64,000 bases of DNA from Aurantiochytrium sp. KH105. Taxonomy: Eukaryota > Sar > Bigyra > Thraustochytrida > Thraustochytriidae. Under the pieces are notes generated by a model that was not told the DNA's origin, made no database searches, and saw only the letters and a program-made list of their open reading frames with translations. The stretch lies in the NCBI GenBank assembly GCA_003116975.1, contig BGKB01000031.1, positions 124,001 to 188,000 on the forward strand, written 5' to 3'. Position 1 is the stretch's first letter; each line of letters begins with the position of its first letter. Below are positions 39,874-46,722 of this stretch, one piece after another. The translations under genes were made by a program, and so were the position numbers.

Positions 39874-42800
39874 ATGTACGCTGTCGCGCGTTCGAGGAAA
39901 CCTCGTTGTCCACTCCGGCTTGCAAGGACCCTACTGCACCTTCTCCTCCTGTGCATAGCCTTAAACCCAAAGAGCGTCCTCGCAGGTTCTGTTTATGCAA
40001 ACGAAGAGGCTGCTGCAGAGGCGTGTGACGCGTTTACAGAAGCTGATGCAAACTCTCTGGGCGCTTCAGGCGAATATCTCGTACAAGCTGCAGGAGCGAC
40101 ATTTCCACAACGTCTCTACGAGTCGGCGATATTTGCCTACGGATTTATTGCTCCTAACGTCCAAATCTCGTACACTGGTACAGGCAGCAGCAAGGGATTG
40201 TGCCGTATCAAGGACTATTGCGAAGAGTGTAAACACTCTTTCAACGTTGATTTTGACGGAACGAGCAGTAGCGACGACCGCCAGCCTTCCGTGATCGACC
40301 TTGCTGGGAGCGATGCAGTCATGTCTTGGGACTCGTACAATGAATACAACGACCTGGAAATGTACCCTTCTGTGGCTGGTGCGGTCGTTCCCATTTACAA
40401 CTTGGAAAATGTCCCAGATCTCGTCTTGAGCACTGAAGTTCTCAGTCGCATTTTTCGACAATGTGATTATCCCGCAACAGCGGGCTGTGAACCAGAGTCG
40501 ATCGCCTATTGGAATCATAGCGACATCTTGGACCTCAATCCTGGTCGTGAAGACGCGCTGCACGAGGCGTCGCAGCAGCACGGGAAAATCAAAGTCATGG
40601 TTCGAGCAGACGGTTCGGGAACGACGGAGATCTTTCGCAGTGCACTTTCTTCATTCGAAGAGGCCTTTGAAACCCAAGTCGGCGCTTCTTCCAAGGCGAC
40701 GTGGAATGCAGTGAATCTTGAGAAGAAAGACACAACTATGGGCCTTGTCTCATCGGTACTTTTGACACCTGGGTCCGTCTCGTATGCGGTGCTCGCAGAT
40801 GCTGACGAGATGAGCGCTCAGAAAGCAGGAATTAGCAAAGATGGAACCATTGTGCATGCATCATCAGAGTCTGTCAACTTTGCTGTCATGGAAAAGGGTC
40901 TCGATTTTGGCAATAATGGTGACAACTCCACTAGCATGACTGCCGATATTTTTGGTGCTAAAGGACGACTCGCTTGGCCTGTTGTGGGCTACACGTACTT
41001 TGTGCTACGCAAGGACAGCTTACGGGAGGGCGCAACCTGTGTCAATCGCGAGGCTACGTTTGGTTTTCTGACATGGTTTTACACCGACAGCGTCGTTGGC
41101 ACCTTGGCAGAAACACTCGGATTTGCTAGTCTCCCTTCAGAAGTCAGTGGTGCCGTTCTCGAGCGCATTCGTACCAGTCTCATGTGCAATGGCGAACTCG
41201 TCTACGCAAAACCTCGCCGAGTTGACGTACGCTTTGATATAAACCCAGTTTTTGAGAATGTGTTGGCCCTCGTCGAGCCTGCATACAAAGTACTTCGTGA
41301 TACGCTCACTTTCAATGTGGCGACCGCGTCTGCTCGTGCTGGCGCGCCTTCATGGATCAGCGAGGAGATTGCTCAGCCTACAATGCTAATTGATTTTGCC
41401 GACACAGTCACCGAGGTACTCTCGCGCAATGACACCAAGACCGACCAACTTGGGCTCCGTCGTCTGCGCTTTGCAGGCGTGGCGCACGCGATCGTCTTCA
41501 ATCTCTGCGGAGCGACAAGCCAGAACGACTGCTCATACTCGAGTCTCGCCGTCTCGATGAACATCCAGACCTTGGTGGACATACTCAACGGGAGTATAAC
41601 GCGCTGGGACGCCTCGGGCATCGTCGCTATGAACGAAGAGACGCCCGTGACGCTTCCCAATGAAACGATTCAACTTATTCGCTCGGACGACGCTTCCAGT
41701 GTCGATTGGATGGACCGCTTCAGCGCGCAGCTCAGCGCGAGGAGCAGCGTGACAGACTTTACGTTCACAACATCAGCCATAATGGTAAGCTCGCCGGAAG
41801 CTCTCCTCGCAACATTGTACAGCACACCGTTCTCAATGGCTGTAATTCCTCTAGTCTCTCAGCTCGGCTCACTCGCCTCAACAATCTCTATACAAACGGA
41901 GAATGGCAGCACAGTCGAGATTTCAGAGTCTTCGATTCTTGCCTGTGTCGAAGAAATCGATATCTCCTCATCGGCTTCTCCAAGCAATGTATTCGCGTCA
42001 TGCTGGCCTTTCGTCGAAGTTCTGGACGCAGTTTTTCCCACGAACTTTCTGAACGAGGCGTGCGAAGACGATGACGACGATGACGACAACGTCCTAAGCG
42101 AGGGCGAAGAGTTTGCAACATTTGTGCACTGGTTTGTGGACGTTGAAACTCTGCAACGGCCGCTTGCCTCGGCTGAAATGGCGTACGCGCCTTGTCGCTC
42201 TTCTTCCGCACTTGCAGATGTCGAGCTAGCGACAACGGCAGTAACTTGCGACGGACACTCCGTGATGCTACCGGAACACGACATTGGTGTCATGTCAGAT
42301 GCGTCCAAGATTGTCATCATGATTGTAGTAGTTCTCTCCGAGGTGAGCATTGTTGGGCTGCTTCTTTGGGTCGTAAGAAAGAGGCGCGCAGCGATCATCC
42401 GTATATCTTCGCCTGTCTTTCTCGTCCAGGTCTTGGTCGGCGGATTCATCTCAGTACACACTGCCATTCTTGTGACCAAGGACGACAGCGTTCTGTACGG
42501 CGAGAACGCGGACCTGTACGACGAGAGTGACGTGTACGCAAGTCTGGACACCAACTGTATGCTGATCCCTATTTTTTTCTTTGTGGGATTTGGTATCATT
42601 GTCGTACCGTTGCTGCTGAAGACGTGGCGAGTCAACAAGCTCTTCAACAACAGACGATTGAGGCGTATTTCCATTTCCAACAGGCAGCTCTTTCAATACG
42701 AGCTCATTTTTCTCGCATGCGTCCTCTCGATCTTACTTGCCTGGCTCACCGTCGATCCACTTCGGTACACGAGAACAATTATTGAAACAGATTCAGTCAC

Positions 42801-43251
42801 AGGTGCGCCAATTCAGTCCGTGGGAATCTGCACGTGCGAAAATCCCTTGCCGTTTCTGGTTCCTCTCATTTGCTTTATTGTCGTCTGCTTGGTTTGGGGA
42901 AACTACCTGGCATACAAGGGGCGAAATATTCCTACAAAGTTTTCGGAAGGTCGCTTCATTGCTATGGCGCTTCTCAGCTACTTGGAGCTCTTTGTTCTTG
43001 GCATTCCAATCTTCATGGTGACCATCAACACACCCAGTCTCGACGGACTCGTCAAAGCTCTCGTGATTATCCTCTGCACGCTCGATGCGTTGGGCCTCAT
43101 CTTTGGCCCCAAAGTCTATGGTTATATCTTTTCTCAAGAAGCCAAGGACAGTCGATCAAAGACGATCAGGACATCCGCCAACACGACAAGTGGCCATGAG
43201 AGAACACACGGTTTCACTTCCAAACCTTCGGCATCAGACGTATCAAGCTAG
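39874..43251 (+). CDS. Class C (GABA-B-like) 7TM receptor with two extracellular PstS-like phosphate-binding domains
   Basis: The protein has 1125 residues from ATG 39874, with a signal peptide of about 37 residues (LHLLLLCIAL). The first periplasmic-binding domain (about 65-430) is PstS-like: AGATFP 73-78, SYTGTGSSKG 99-108, DLAGSD 142-147, VVPIYNL 171-177 and RADGSGTTEIF 244-254, the loops that hold phosphate in bacterial PstS. A second, degenerate copy (about 490-690) keeps AHAIVFNLCG, LVDILNGSITRWDA and LIRSDDASS. After an acidic linker, a class C 7TM domain spans about 811-1086 with Cys895 and Cys986/988 placed like the extracellular disulfide, SPVFLVQVLVGG, LLKTWRVNKLFNN and the TM7 FGPKVYGYIF. 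There is no Cys-rich domain, as in GABA-B receptors. A plausible role is sensing extracellular phosphate and signalling through G proteins; that is inferred from architecture. Confidence 0.88.
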   Translation: MYAVARSRKPRCPLRLARTLLHLLLLCIALNPKSVLAGSVYANEEAAAEACDAFTEADANSLGASGEYLVQAAGATFPQRLYESAIFAYGFIAPNVQISYTGTGSSKGLCRIKDYCEECKHSFNVDFDGTSSSDDRQPSVIDLAGSDAVMSWDSYNEYNDLEMYPSVAGAVVPIYNLENVPDLVLSTEVLSRIFRQCDYPATAGCEPESIAYWNHSDILDLNPGREDALHEASQQHGKIKVMVRADGSGTTEIFRSALSSFEEAFETQVGASSKATWNAVNLEKKDTTMGLVSSVLLTPGSVSYAVLADADEMSAQKAGISKDGTIVHASSESVNFAVMEKGLDFGNNGDNSTSMTADIFGAKGRLAWPVVGYTYFVLRKDSLREGATCVNREATFGFLTWFYTDSVVGTLAETLGFASLPSEVSGAVLERIRTSLMCNGELVYAKPRRVDVRFDINPVFENVLALVEPAYKVLRDTLTFNVATASARAGAPSWISEEIAQPTMLIDFADTVTEVLSRNDTKTDQLGLRRLRFAGVAHAIVFNLCGATSQNDCSYSSLAVSMNIQTLVDILNGSITRWDASGIVAMNEETPVTLPNETIQLIRSDDASSVDWMDRFSAQLSARSSVTDFTFTTSAIMVSSPEALLATLYSTPFSMAVIPLVSQLGSLASTISIQTENGSTVEISESSILACVEEIDISSSASPSNVFASCWPFVEVLDAVFPTNFLNEACEDDDDDDDNVLSEGEEFATFVHWFVDVETLQRPLASAEMAYAPCRSSSALADVELATTAVTCDGHSVMLPEHDIGVMSDASKIVIMIVVVLSEVSIVGLLLWVVRKRRAAIIRISSPVFLVQVLVGGFISVHTAILVTKDDSVLYGENADLYDESDVYASLDTNCMLIPIFFFVGFGIIVVPLLLKTWRVNKLFNNRRLRRISISNRQLFQYELIFLACVLSILLAWLTVDPLRYTRTIIETDSVTGAPIQSVGICTCENPLPFLVPLICFIVVCLVWGNYLAYKGRNIPTKFSEGRFIAMALLSYLELFVLGIPIFMVTINTPSLDGLVKALVIILCTLDALGLIFGPKVYGYIFSQEAKDSRSKTIRTSANTTSGHERTHGFTSKPSASDVSS

Positions 43252-43656: not shown

Positions 43657-45003
43657 ATGGCGAGTGCGTGCAACGTCTGCGCGGAGAGCGCAGCCGCGTA
43701 CCGCTGCCCGCGGTGCGCAGCAGCGTACTGCGGCGTGTCGTGCTACAGACGTCATGGAGGCGGCAATTGCATGGAGGCCTTTTACAAAGACCAAGTCGAG
43801 GGCGAGCTGCGCCTACGGGCAGCCGAGCGGCGCCGTGAAATCGACCTCGAGCCACCGCGCGATGCCCAGCGTCTGTTGTCTGTTTCGCGCGAGCAAGCTC
43901 AAAAGCGGCTCTTGCTAGAGAAAACAATGGTCGAGCAAGAAGAGAGTGGGGACCAGGGGTCGTCCTCGCCGCTGCTTATCGAGCAGAACGACCAAGACCA
44001 GGGCGAAGACCGCGAAATCGAGCAGCTCGCAGCCCGTCTCAAAGACGTGCTTGGCGTACAGGAACTTACGGCAAAGAGCATTGAAGAGGCTTCAGTCCAC
44101 GATCTTGAGGCAGCCATGCTTGAGCAGGACCGCGTCAGATTCCGCACCCAGGTATCCGTCGCTGGAGGGCTAGATGTGGTCTACGGCGATGAGAACGCAA
44201 GACTACGTCCATACGTTCCTTGGTGGACATTTCCGGTGGGACAATACATTTCCTTTCGAGAGCCTCGCGTGAGCAAGCGGCTTGTGTGGGATCTCGATGG
44301 TAAAGAGCAGCAGGAGGAAACTGATGATGAACCAAATGCCCTGCACTCTACGCAATTGAGTGCGCCCATGATCTGGTTCGGGGAGACCATGGCACAAGAA
44401 GAGCGAGCGTCTGTATTTACTCGCAGTAGAAATGAGTCCCTCGCTTCCATTGGCGCGCCTGCACAGATTGCAGCCTCCTTCAAATTTCATGTGTGTAGTG
44501 TCGCTCTGGCATATGTGCACGCTGTAAGACTCTTCAATGGCCTCATTGGCTCGGATAATAGTGACGAGGTTTTGCGCGAGCTAGCTGCGCGCTCAAGCAT
44601 CTTGCGCGGCGAACGTTTCGCGCCAGAGTCTCTCGAGCAAGTCATGTTGGACTCCTTTGGAACCATCTCGGCTGCAAACATCTCGGCTTTCAAATCCGCT
44701 TTGGCTTCAGAGCAGGCTGCTCCCAGCGCAAGAACGCATTTTGCCATCGAGAGACCTGGCGAGGACGAATTTGCTGGCGCAAGGCTCTTTGCCAGTCACG
44801 AGCAGCAGCTCGTGGACTTGCGCGCTCTTATCGCGAGCCCCCAAGAACTTTTGGCTGACGCTCTTTTGGACGTGTGGCAGTGCTTTCGAGAATCTCGCAC
44901 GCGCTCGACTCTTGTGAAGAGGATTGAGCGCAAGCTTTGGTTCATGGTTCTCTGGGCGCAGACGCAGCACGCTCCTCTCTTTGTCAGCGAACCGCTGCCT
45001 TGA
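43657..45003 (+). CDS. ZNHIT2: ZNHIT2, HIT-type zinc finger protein
   Basis: The protein has 448 residues from ATG 43657. The N-terminal HIT finger is complete: CNVC, CPRC, YCGVSCYRRH and C (residues 5-38), immediately followed by MEAFYKDQVEGELR, the extension that marks ZNHIT2. The remainder is the ZNHIT2-type C-terminal region with PYVPWWTFPVGQY and a helical end. In other eukaryotes ZNHIT2 links the R2TP chaperone to assembly of the U5 snRNP in nucleus and cytoplasm. All eight zinc ligands are present. Length is close to the human protein. Identification is good. Confidence 0.85.
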   Translation: MASACNVCAESAAAYRCPRCAAAYCGVSCYRRHGGGNCMEAFYKDQVEGELRLRAAERRREIDLEPPRDAQRLLSVSREQAQKRLLLEKTMVEQEESGDQGSSSPLLIEQNDQDQGEDREIEQLAARLKDVLGVQELTAKSIEEASVHDLEAAMLEQDRVRFRTQVSVAGGLDVVYGDENARLRPYVPWWTFPVGQYISFREPRVSKRLVWDLDGKEQQEETDDEPNALHSTQLSAPMIWFGETMAQEERASVFTRSRNESLASIGAPAQIAASFKFHVCSVALAYVHAVRLFNGLIGSDNSDEVLRELAARSSILRGERFAPESLEQVMLDSFGTISAANISAFKSALASEQAAPSARTHFAIERPGEDEFAGARLFASHEQQLVDLRALIASPQELLADALLDVWQCFRESRTRSTLVKRIERKLWFMVLWAQTQHAPLFVSEPLP

Positions 45004-45579
45004 AGATGTCCACGGATCTCGAAACAAAAGCAATGCCGAGAGCAAGAGCGCTTCCTGGCGCTCCACATGCCAATGTATACATACTAGGCCAAGGACGCTT
45101 CTCTCCTCCCGCACGGCCCGTGACTCTGCCTCGCATGTTCTTCGTTAGGCCAGCAGCCGGGCGGAGCAGGTGCAGTGCACACGAGTCAAGACTGCCTGAG
45201 CGATGGCCGGGCATGCGAGCAATGGAGCAAGCAAGCCGGCAAGCTAGCAAGCAAGCCAAGGAGCAAGCCCAGAAGCAAGTCAAGACGCAAGCCACCCGAG
45301 CACAGCAACCAGAACCTTGTATTATACTCCCCGATTATACTACTATACCTCTTTTGGGTGGGTTCGTCGAGGGTTCGTGGTCAGGTTTCCGAGCAAGGCG
45401 CACGCGAAGGCAAGCCAGGATCCCTCGCTCGCGAGGCTCGCCCGCGGCGCCCGCGCGGCGGAGAGGAGAGCGCGAGACGCGAGCGGAGGCGAGAGCAGAG
45501 GACACGCCACGAGCGGAGGCGAGAGGAGAGGAGAGAAGAGAAGACCCCCGGCGAGCGCGGCGACGTGGGTCCGGCCGGC
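45004..45579. other. Intergenic between ZNHIT2 and the RGS gene
   Basis: GC-rich with AGCAAGC repeats (45230-45275) and GAGAGGAG repeats (45455-45545). The frame leading into the RGS gene is open here but without an ATG. Confidence 0.45.
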
Positions 45580-46722
45580 ATGGGCGCGTGCCTGACGGCG
45601 GCCGGCCGGGGCCGCGGGGCCCCCGGGACGGCGAGACGCACGACGCGGGCGGAGTCGGCGCTGGCGGTGCTCTCGTGGGACTTCAAGGCGGCGCTGCCCG
45701 CGCACGAGGCGAGAGGAGGACAGGGCGCACGCGAAGAGTTTGAGATTGAAGACAGGGTCTCCGAAGAAGAGGAGGCCGCCACGCGCGAACGCCTCGAGGC
45801 CCTCAGAGGTACCCTCGACGATCTGCCCCTAAAGTACGTGCTCAAAGACGTGGCGCTACTCCAGGCGTTCAGGGTCTTTATCAAGTCGCAGCACGCAAGC
45901 GAAAACCTTCTCTTTTACCTTGCCGTGCAAAAATTTCGCAAACACAAGTACGTGCGTCCGAACAATGACCTGCAAGCCATTCTCGAGGAGGCCGAGACCA
46001 CGCTCCCAGCATCAGATGTGAGTGTGGACGTAACGCGAATGCACATCAACATGGCTCGCTCTTTCCGGCTTCCCATGTCGCAGGTGAACGCCATCATGGA
46101 CGCGTTGCGCGTGTACCAAACCTTTTTGCAGGATGGCGCGCGGATGTGGGTCTGTGTTTCGCCTTCCGTGCTCAAAGAGGTGCAGGAAATTCTCCTCGAA
46201 AAGCCCCAACTTACCAAGCAGAACGCTGTCTTTACAAAGGCTGCCGATGAAGCCTTTCAGACCATGGAGCGCGACATCTTACCGCGCTTTGTCGAGGCGT
46301 GCATGGAGGAAGAGCTTTTGGACCGCATGGCCTACTACGCGCGAATGGCGCAGAATGGGGATCAGACCGCCAAGAAGGAAGCCTCGCCGCGCAAGAAACC
46401 AATGTCGAACAGATTCATGCCGCCGAGCGTCGGCTCGTCTCTGCGCCGACGGGGCGAGGCCGCGGCGGCACTTACATTCCGCAGACCACATTCGACGCTC
46501 GGCAGGTCCAAGTTGAAGGGGGATGCTGCATCGGGCCCCCACGGCGTCGAGACGGAGTCCGATGCACCGGATGAGCTCGCAATCGAGACCTCTGCTGAAA
46601 ATACCGAGTCCCCGAGTCTCGATGAAAGTGAAGAAGCGATTGCATCAGCGCGAGCTCGAGCTCGAGCTGCCAAGAAGCGGCGTGGCTTTCGACACCAACT
46701 TCGTGCCCTATCTTCGGGCTGA
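45580..46722 (+). CDS. RGS-domain protein with N-terminal lipid-anchor motif
   Basis: The protein has 380 residues from ATG 45580. The N-terminus MGACLTAAG fits N-myristoylation at Gly2 with a palmitoylatable Cys4, a usual membrane anchor for G-protein regulators. The RGS domain spans about 79-240: LKYVLKDVALLQAFRVFIKSQHASENLLFYLAVQKF, ASDVSVDVTRMHIN and KAADEAFQTMERDILPRFVEACMEEE. RGS domains speed GTP hydrolysis on G-alpha subunits. The tail is Ser/Arg-rich. It lies 2.3 kb downstream of the class C receptor gene on the same strand. The open frame before 45580 is Arg/Glu low complexity and lacks an ATG, which supports this start. Confidence 0.88.
   Translation: MGACLTAAGRGRGAPGTARRTTRAESALAVLSWDFKAALPAHEARGGQGAREEFEIEDRVSEEEEAATRERLEALRGTLDDLPLKYVLKDVALLQAFRVFIKSQHASENLLFYLAVQKFRKHKYVRPNNDLQAILEEAETTLPASDVSVDVTRMHINMARSFRLPMSQVNAIMDALRVYQTFLQDGARMWVCVSPSVLKEVQEILLEKPQLTKQNAVFTKAADEAFQTMERDILPRFVEACMEEELLDRMAYYARMAQNGDQTAKKEASPRKKPMSNRFMPPSVGSSLRRRGEAAAALTFRRPHSTLGRSKLKGDAASGPHGVETESDAPDELAIETSAENTESPSLDESEEAIASARARARAAKKRRGFRHQLRALSSG

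Follow-up and report, generated by a model that had tools for sequence, protein, structure and literature searches.

It is not settled how eukaryotic microbes perceive phosphate outside the cell. For diatoms, a 2024 account states that it is unknown whether the phosphate sensor lies on the plasma membrane or inside the cell (PMC11448323). A gene of Aurantiochytrium sp. KH105 bears on this question. It lies in a window of 64,000 nucleotides (contig BGKB01000031.1, positions 124,001 to 188,000 of the forward strand) and joins two domains related to the bacterial phosphate-binding protein PstS, here called D1 and D2, to a seven-transmembrane (7TM) domain of the class C G-protein-coupled receptor (GPCR) type. 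What would such a protein do? Here, we propose that it is probably a plasma-membrane class C GPCR for extracellular inorganic phosphate, and we regard it as a strong candidate sensor for single-celled eukaryotes. We infer phosphate binding, membrane topology, dimerization, the role of D2, G-protein coupling, and a nutrient-sensing role.

As the preliminary description of this gene had it, a single exon suffices: the open reading frame (ORF) runs on the plus strand from an ATG at 39874 to a stop ending at 43251 and encodes 1,125 amino acids in one frame, with no intron required. Its features are as follows.

39874..43251, plus strand: single-exon gene for the predicted PstS-PstS'-7TM receptor, 1,125 amino acids (ORF; Pfam, NCBIfam, and PDB sequence matches)
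39874..39987, plus strand: leader, residues 1-38 (hydropathy, hydrophobic stretch 12-38)
40069..41193, plus strand: D1, intact PstS-type domain, residues 66-440 (profile and PDB sequence matches, model)
40099..40104, plus strand: pocket residues T76 and F77, PstS T10 and F11 (alignment)
40186..40188, plus strand: pocket residue S105, PstS S38 (alignment)
40312..40314, plus strand: pocket residue D147, PstS D56 (alignment)
40603..40623, plus strand: pocket loop R244-T250, PstS R135, D137, S139, G140, and T141 (alignment)
41194..42258, plus strand: D2, residues 441-795, PstS-type but degenerate, lacking the ATFP and SGT loops (profiles, alignments)
42295..43113, plus strand: class C 7TM domain, residues 808-1080 (Pfam, PDB matches, hallmarks, model)
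43144..43248, plus strand: cytoplasmic tail with poor conservation, residues 1091-1125 (omega 0.6-1.8)

The leader is probably a signal peptide, as judged from hydropathy. In a Pfam scan of the protein at E<=1, only PBP_like_2 (best stretch 70-405, E 4e-16, 2 stretches, score above the Pfam cutoff) and 7tm_3 (808-1080, E 2e-34, 120 bits against a cutoff of 33.5) were matched; ANF_receptor and Peripla_BP_6, which the preliminary description had named as competitors of PstS, were not found. The NCBIfam PstS model TIGR00975 matched three stretches (E 5e-47) with 160.5 bits, below its equivalog cutoff of 205. In the PDB sequence search, the N-terminal part matched Escherichia coli PstS (1ixh, E 2e-16) and the C-terminal part matched GABA-B2 (6uo8, E 1e-17). 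Six N-glycosylation sequons lie N-terminal to the 7TM domain.

When the genome (76 Mb, 367 contigs) was searched, profile matches fell in near-identical contig pairs, which are read here as two haplotypes. Eight of the 10 PBP_like_2 matches were located inside the open frame of a 7tm_3 match, which places the fusion beyond chance. The fusions represent four genes on two haplotypes each: C31/C14 (the window gene), C59/C214 (a close paralogue), C140/C30, and C51/C123. Three Hondaea fermentalgiana proteins are 98.2 to 99.8% identical to the nearer haplotype, which makes the host Hondaea or a very close relative. Omega was calculated for the query against its allele L023, paralogue L021, and paralogue L022, respectively, and amounted to 0.155/0.094/0.103 for D1, 0.223/0.242/0.256 for D2, 0.120/0.131/0.122 for the 7TM domain, 0.343/0.231/0.229 for the leader, and 1.77/0.877/0.614 for the tail. 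For the remaining three receptor genes, whole-gene omega between alleles was 0.11, 0.10, and 0.15.

The phosphate contacts of E. coli PstS are taken here to be T10, F11, S38, D56, R135, S139, G140, and T141, with D137 beside R135. All eight contacts are kept in the query D1, and all nine positions are kept in D1 of the eight ORFs of the KH105 genome; the reported motifs TGTGSSKG, DLAGSD, and RADGSGTT are all present. The loop at S105 varies among alleles and paralogues, including L022 and L023 (GTGSSKG, GTSSSKG, GTDSNKG), with the serine kept throughout. Among relatives, and with T/S exchange allowed, the eight contacts are kept in 12 of 14 GPCR-type D1s and in 10 of 11 D1s of the cyclase-type proteins described below. 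For this count, the near-identical rows P0001, L017-L020, L022, and L023 were dropped, P0008-P0011 were left out as fragments or poorly alignable, and P0005 and P0015 were counted as GPCR-type though they are fragments without a 7TM domain. The exceptions are P0004, which begins inside D1; P0070, a genuine loss; and P0069, in which D56 is replaced by E. P0007 carries T at the D137 place. Identity averages 92% in the pocket columns versus 57% over 345 D1 columns, a level reached by only 6 of 100,000 random sets of eight D1 columns.

On the strength of the D1 pocket and fold, phosphate is the predicted ligand. D1 might instead have been retuned to arsenate, an organophosphate, polyphosphate, or a secreted protein, in which case phosphate would not be the physiological signal. 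This would fit the D1 insertion whose two cysteines, C197 and C205, are absent from E. coli PstS in the alignment, as well as the lost pocket of P0070. However, conservation is far higher at the eight contacts than in the remainder of D1, and omega of D1 is low; a different ligand is considered unlikely.

The second domain, previously placed at residues 490-690, is larger and extends over approximately 441-795. This stretch alone matched PstS3 (4lvq, E 1e-4) among PDB sequences and TIGR00975 (E 7e-7); the equivalent stretch of paralogue L019 matches TIGR00975 (E 5e-9), and that of L017 gives no match. With a six-row D2 profile, 21 PDB sequences were found at E<=1 (18 PstS, 2 DING-type, and 1 unrelated; best E 5e-13). 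An 18-row D2 alignment, with 16 rows used, was matched by hhalign to 65 bacterial PstS at 99.7% over 320 columns (one-pair E 4e-26), and the D2 region of P0008, a distant member, gave a direct PBP_like_2 match (E 4e-12). Because of these profile, PDB, and hhalign matches, D2 is, by sequence, a PstS relative. Its binding loops have decayed: ATFP is present in 14 and R.x.SGT[TS] in 16 of the 17 D1 rows, whereas neither motif is seen in any of the 18 D2 rows, near-duplicate rows included. In the cyclase type, both motifs are present in 9/9 D1s and 0/9 D2s. The description of D2 as degenerate at the phosphate loops stands for ATFP and SGT; remnants of the pocket are kept, as discussed below.

An AlphaFold model of the receptor (17-sequence alignment; mean predicted local distance difference test [pLDDT], 76.6; predicted template modeling score [pTM], 0.47) was compared with the PDB by VIA-align. 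In line with the domains proposed earlier, D1 matched PstS structures and the 7TM domain matched class C receptors. Of the solved structures, GABA-B matched the 7TM domain best, by sequence as well as by model. Fewer than one-fifth of the rows listed span residues 445-800, so the fold of D2 was barely probed there. The query 7TM domain carries C895 (TM3 cysteine), K916 (K3.50-like), E1025 (E6.35-like), and P1079-K1080 (TM7 PK motif), which are assumed here to be the class C hallmarks. In 14 PstS-type rows, the cysteine and the lysine are kept in 14 each, the acid is E in 13 and D in 1, and the P and K of the PK motif are kept in 12 each. By profile, modeled fold, and motifs, the 7TM domain is of the class C GPCR type.

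Relatives were collected in three database searches (8,000, 7,999, and 8,000 candidates scored; 11, 53, and 87 matches, the latter two sets mostly bacterial PstS). PF00003 and PF12849 occur together in 12 proteins (P0001-P0004, P0006-P0008, P0012-P0014, P0064, and P0070), including P0001, P0012, and P0013 of Hondaea. The suggested search in other stramenopiles was rewarded by P0007 of Heterosigma akashiwo, with the same domain order. The named hosts are thus a thraustochytrid and a raphidophyte, which we take to be both stramenopiles; among the approximately 8,000 candidates scored per search, too few to show absence, no protein of a named diatom combined the two domains. P0005, transcriptomic by its label, holds D1 and part of D2 and ends before the 7TM domain, and only parts of D1 and D2 are present in P0011 of Cymbomonas. 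In P0009, two PstS domains are followed by ephrin-receptor-like cysteine repeats in place of a 7TM match. Among viral contigs, 39 stretches fit the search pattern and none was a relative.

The same ectodomain is found on cyclases. PF12849 and PF00211 occur together in 11 proteins (P0016, P0063, P0065-P0069, and P0071-P0074), all 11 with a detected cyclase domain and a single strong hydrophobic stretch between it and D2. Across D1 and the beginning of D2, they are collinear with the GPCR type (P0007 versus P0016, 31% over 538 residues). The cyclase D2, aligned in 9 of 11, matched the GPCR-type D2 at 99.4% over 285 columns by hhalign, versus 96.5% for bacterial PstS. These PstS-PstS'-cyclase proteins are 1,578 to 2,054 amino acids long, and some of their clusters have hundreds of members (up to 541); judged by sequence, they are apparently an abundant receptor-cyclase family.

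The genome holds 69 matches to 7tm_3. From these, 31 further loci were taken, about one per contig pair, and a 32nd duplicated a locus already in the set; four whose longest ORF was not clearly a receptor (L030, L052, L053, and L054) were dropped, and 27 were scanned, 19 of them also singly. All 27 matched 7tm_3, 10 ANF_receptor, 9 Peripla_BP_6, 4 OpuAC, 2 sCache_2, and 1 Phosphonate-bd. PstS is therefore one among several bacterial nutrient-binding folds heading class C receptors in this genome. L055 (G000:C70), with a Phosphonate-bd ectodomain (PF12974, E 7e-26) and no match among PDB sequences at E 1e-3, is a possible phosphonate or phosphite receptor. L041-L044 (G000:C34:45600-65200) are adjoining class C receptors, and OpuAC, a glycine-betaine-binding domain, was confirmed singly for L041 and L044.

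In the proposed mechanism, the leader would deliver the ectodomain to the cell surface, where D1 would act as a bacterially derived type II Venus flytrap, closing on phosphate through the PstS residues. D2, the tandem copy with decayed binding loops, may serve as a coupling or dimer-contact stalk, and the 7TM domain would relay D1 closure to a heterotrimeric G protein. A receptor is favored because of the 7TM fold and hallmarks, the presence of G-alpha, G-gamma, and RGS genes in the genome, the lack of an ABC permease match, and the ectodomain shared with cyclases.

The protein might also be a phosphate transporter or transceptor, in which the substrate-binding domain would hand phosphate to the seven helices for membrane transit. 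Bacterial PstS does serve uptake, and PstS-type substrate-binding proteins work with an ATP-binding cassette (ABC) permease. Yet no match to the permease family PF00528 was found in the KH105 genome at E<=0.001 (3 candidates scored; controls positive in 14/14), and we know of no transport by class C 7TM domains. The K/E pair tied to class C activation is retained, and the ectodomain is also carried by cyclases. The 7tm_3 proteins headed by OpuAC and Phosphonate-bd look like a receptor repertoire, although a transporter reading could cover them too. Transport has been proposed in print for 7tm_3 plus PBP_like_2 proteins of Plasmodiophora brassicae (PMC4815078), and it weighs against phosphate reception; for the KH105 protein, we judge it improbable. 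A gene-model artifact that merges a bacterial-like gene with a GPCR gene is hardly credible, and so is contamination by bacterial DNA: fused models do occur, as in Hondaea P0001, which joins the receptor to the downstream zf-HIT gene, but the frame is uninterrupted in eight ORFs (four genes, two haplotypes), domain order is identical in Heterosigma and metagenomic proteins, omega of D1 and of the 7TM domain is alike, and the transcriptome-labeled P0005 spans D1 and part of D2, although it stops before the 7TM domain.

Several further points speak against the phosphate receptor, which is a prediction from sequence and model. Related oxyanions can also be bound by PstS-like proteins, and because P0070 lacks the D1 pocket, some members would sense another signal or nothing. 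In D2 of the query and of L021, RSD is retained near the R135 place; in the query, it is aligned with RSD of PstS3 and lies one residue off in the hhalign alignment to bacterial PstS. An R within 2 columns of that place is found in 6 of 18 D2 rows, the query among them, and D510 of the query lies opposite PstS D56. These remnants mean that D2 may still bind weakly, and the role given to D2 is a guess. The arrangement of domains in the AlphaFold model is unsure (pTM 0.47). The 7TM hallmarks are common to class C receptors at large and therefore do not prove G-protein coupling.

Where did the ectodomain come from? When 84,980 prokaryote species were scanned with a back-translated pattern, all 25 relatives found were titled Chloroflexota or subgroups thereof, in a sample biased toward look-alikes since the pattern was derived from the PstS-receptor family. 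A midpoint-rooted tree of D1 and PstS was built from 68 rows, which included 16 of the 24 ORFs from Chloroflexota, 9 of the 11 cyclases, and some of the other bacterial matches, selected by hand. One clade (100/100), set on a long branch, took in all 25 cassette rows: 14 of GPCR type, 9 cyclases, P0009, and the 404-amino-acid P0078. Its neighbors are PstS of Chloroflexota and further bacterial PstS, through a nesting fork (93/80) below the mark for firm support. The cyclase D1s form one clade (100/98) within the GPCR-type set, and the forks that put P0064 and P0070 next to them have weak support (89/75 and 81/54). In the 7TM tree, nine PstS-type 7TMs are grouped (99/97); P0007, P0064, P0070, and the pair P0008/P0010 are unresolved or apart, so a single fusion event is unsupported. 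The simplest reading of the origin is a single capture of a Chloroflexota-like PstS. Quite possibly, though with slightly less than even confidence, the captured PstS duplicated in an early protist lineage to an active/decayed pair and became a portable extracellular phosphate-sensing cassette, carried by class C GPCRs in part of the lineages and by receptor cyclases in others; this would be a hitherto missing sensor of phosphate at the plasma membrane of marine protists.

L024 and L025 (C125 and C2), which hold the remaining two of the 10 PBP_like_2 matches, encode another candidate surface protein with a PstS domain, separate from the receptors. Read by eye, this protein of approximately 850 amino acids has kelch-like repeats, then a divergent PstS, and one hydrophobic stretch; it was placed elsewhere in the D1 tree, on a very long branch. 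Near the receptor gene in the window, a zf-HIT gene (43657-45003, plus strand) is followed by an RGS-domain gene (45175-46722, plus strand, E 2e-14). This RGS gene might be considered as a partner of the receptor: an RGS match lies near the receptor on both haplotypes (C31 and C14), but among the 84 RGS matches listed none lies near the other three receptor genes. In the Hondaea entry P0001, the N terminus is truncated, and its fusion to the zf-HIT gene looks like a gene-model error.

The prediction yields a directly testable candidate, with a ligand, residues to mutate, a decayed domain, and two alternative outputs (G protein and cyclase) specified. In the open-licence literature, no paper was found describing a PstS-headed receptor as a phosphate receptor; within it, what is new is the reading as a receptor, the pairing of an active with a decayed domain, the conserved pocket, and the version coupled to a cyclase. 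The domain pair (P. brassicae, PMC4815078) and class C receptors with other bacterial-type modules (PMC3727952 and PMC10445921) are already described. On the whole, the interpretation given in the preliminary description is partly supported.

Among known systems, Chloroflexota-type PstS shares the D1 fold and pocket residues and includes the nearest relatives in scan and tree; in KH105, however, D1 is joined to D2 and a 7TM domain, in a genome with no permease match. The GABA-B receptor is the closest solved 7TM, and no cysteine-rich domain was matched in the KH105 receptor. GABA-B1/B2 pairs a ligand-binding with a ligand-dead module as type I Venus flytraps on two chains, whereas the KH105 modules are PstS-type and on one chain. 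The cyclase-type proteins resemble in layout the trypanosomatid receptor adenylate cyclases, which have a large ectodomain, one membrane pass, and a cyclase domain; the trypanosomatid ectodomain presumably belongs to a different family. The calcium-sensing receptor is likewise a class C GPCR affected by extracellular phosphate, but there phosphate is a noncompetitive antagonist at an anion site (PMC6795806), while the KH105 receptor has a phosphate-binding-protein fold. As far as the accessible text goes, class C receptors of diatoms (PMC3727952) and Grl receptors of social amoebae (PMC10445921) also carry bacterial-type modules, of the PBP1/ABC sugar and BMP families, respectively; in the main text of the latter, as available, PBP_like_2 appears only in the abbreviation list, and the word "periplasmic" is absent from the accessible part of a 2025 choanoflagellate GPCR survey (PMC12716839). 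The P. brassicae fusions also join 7tm_3 to PBP_like_2, a likeness at the level of the Pfam pair. In the accessible part of the 2016 account, they were termed transporters and unique to P. brassicae, four were assigned phosphate by homology, SBP_bac_1 versions were reported too, and neither a pocket analysis nor an active/degenerate pair appears (PMC4815078). Here, the pair is present in two named stramenopiles, and if the phosphate-receptor reading is true, the Plasmodiophora "transporters" would be reread as receptors.
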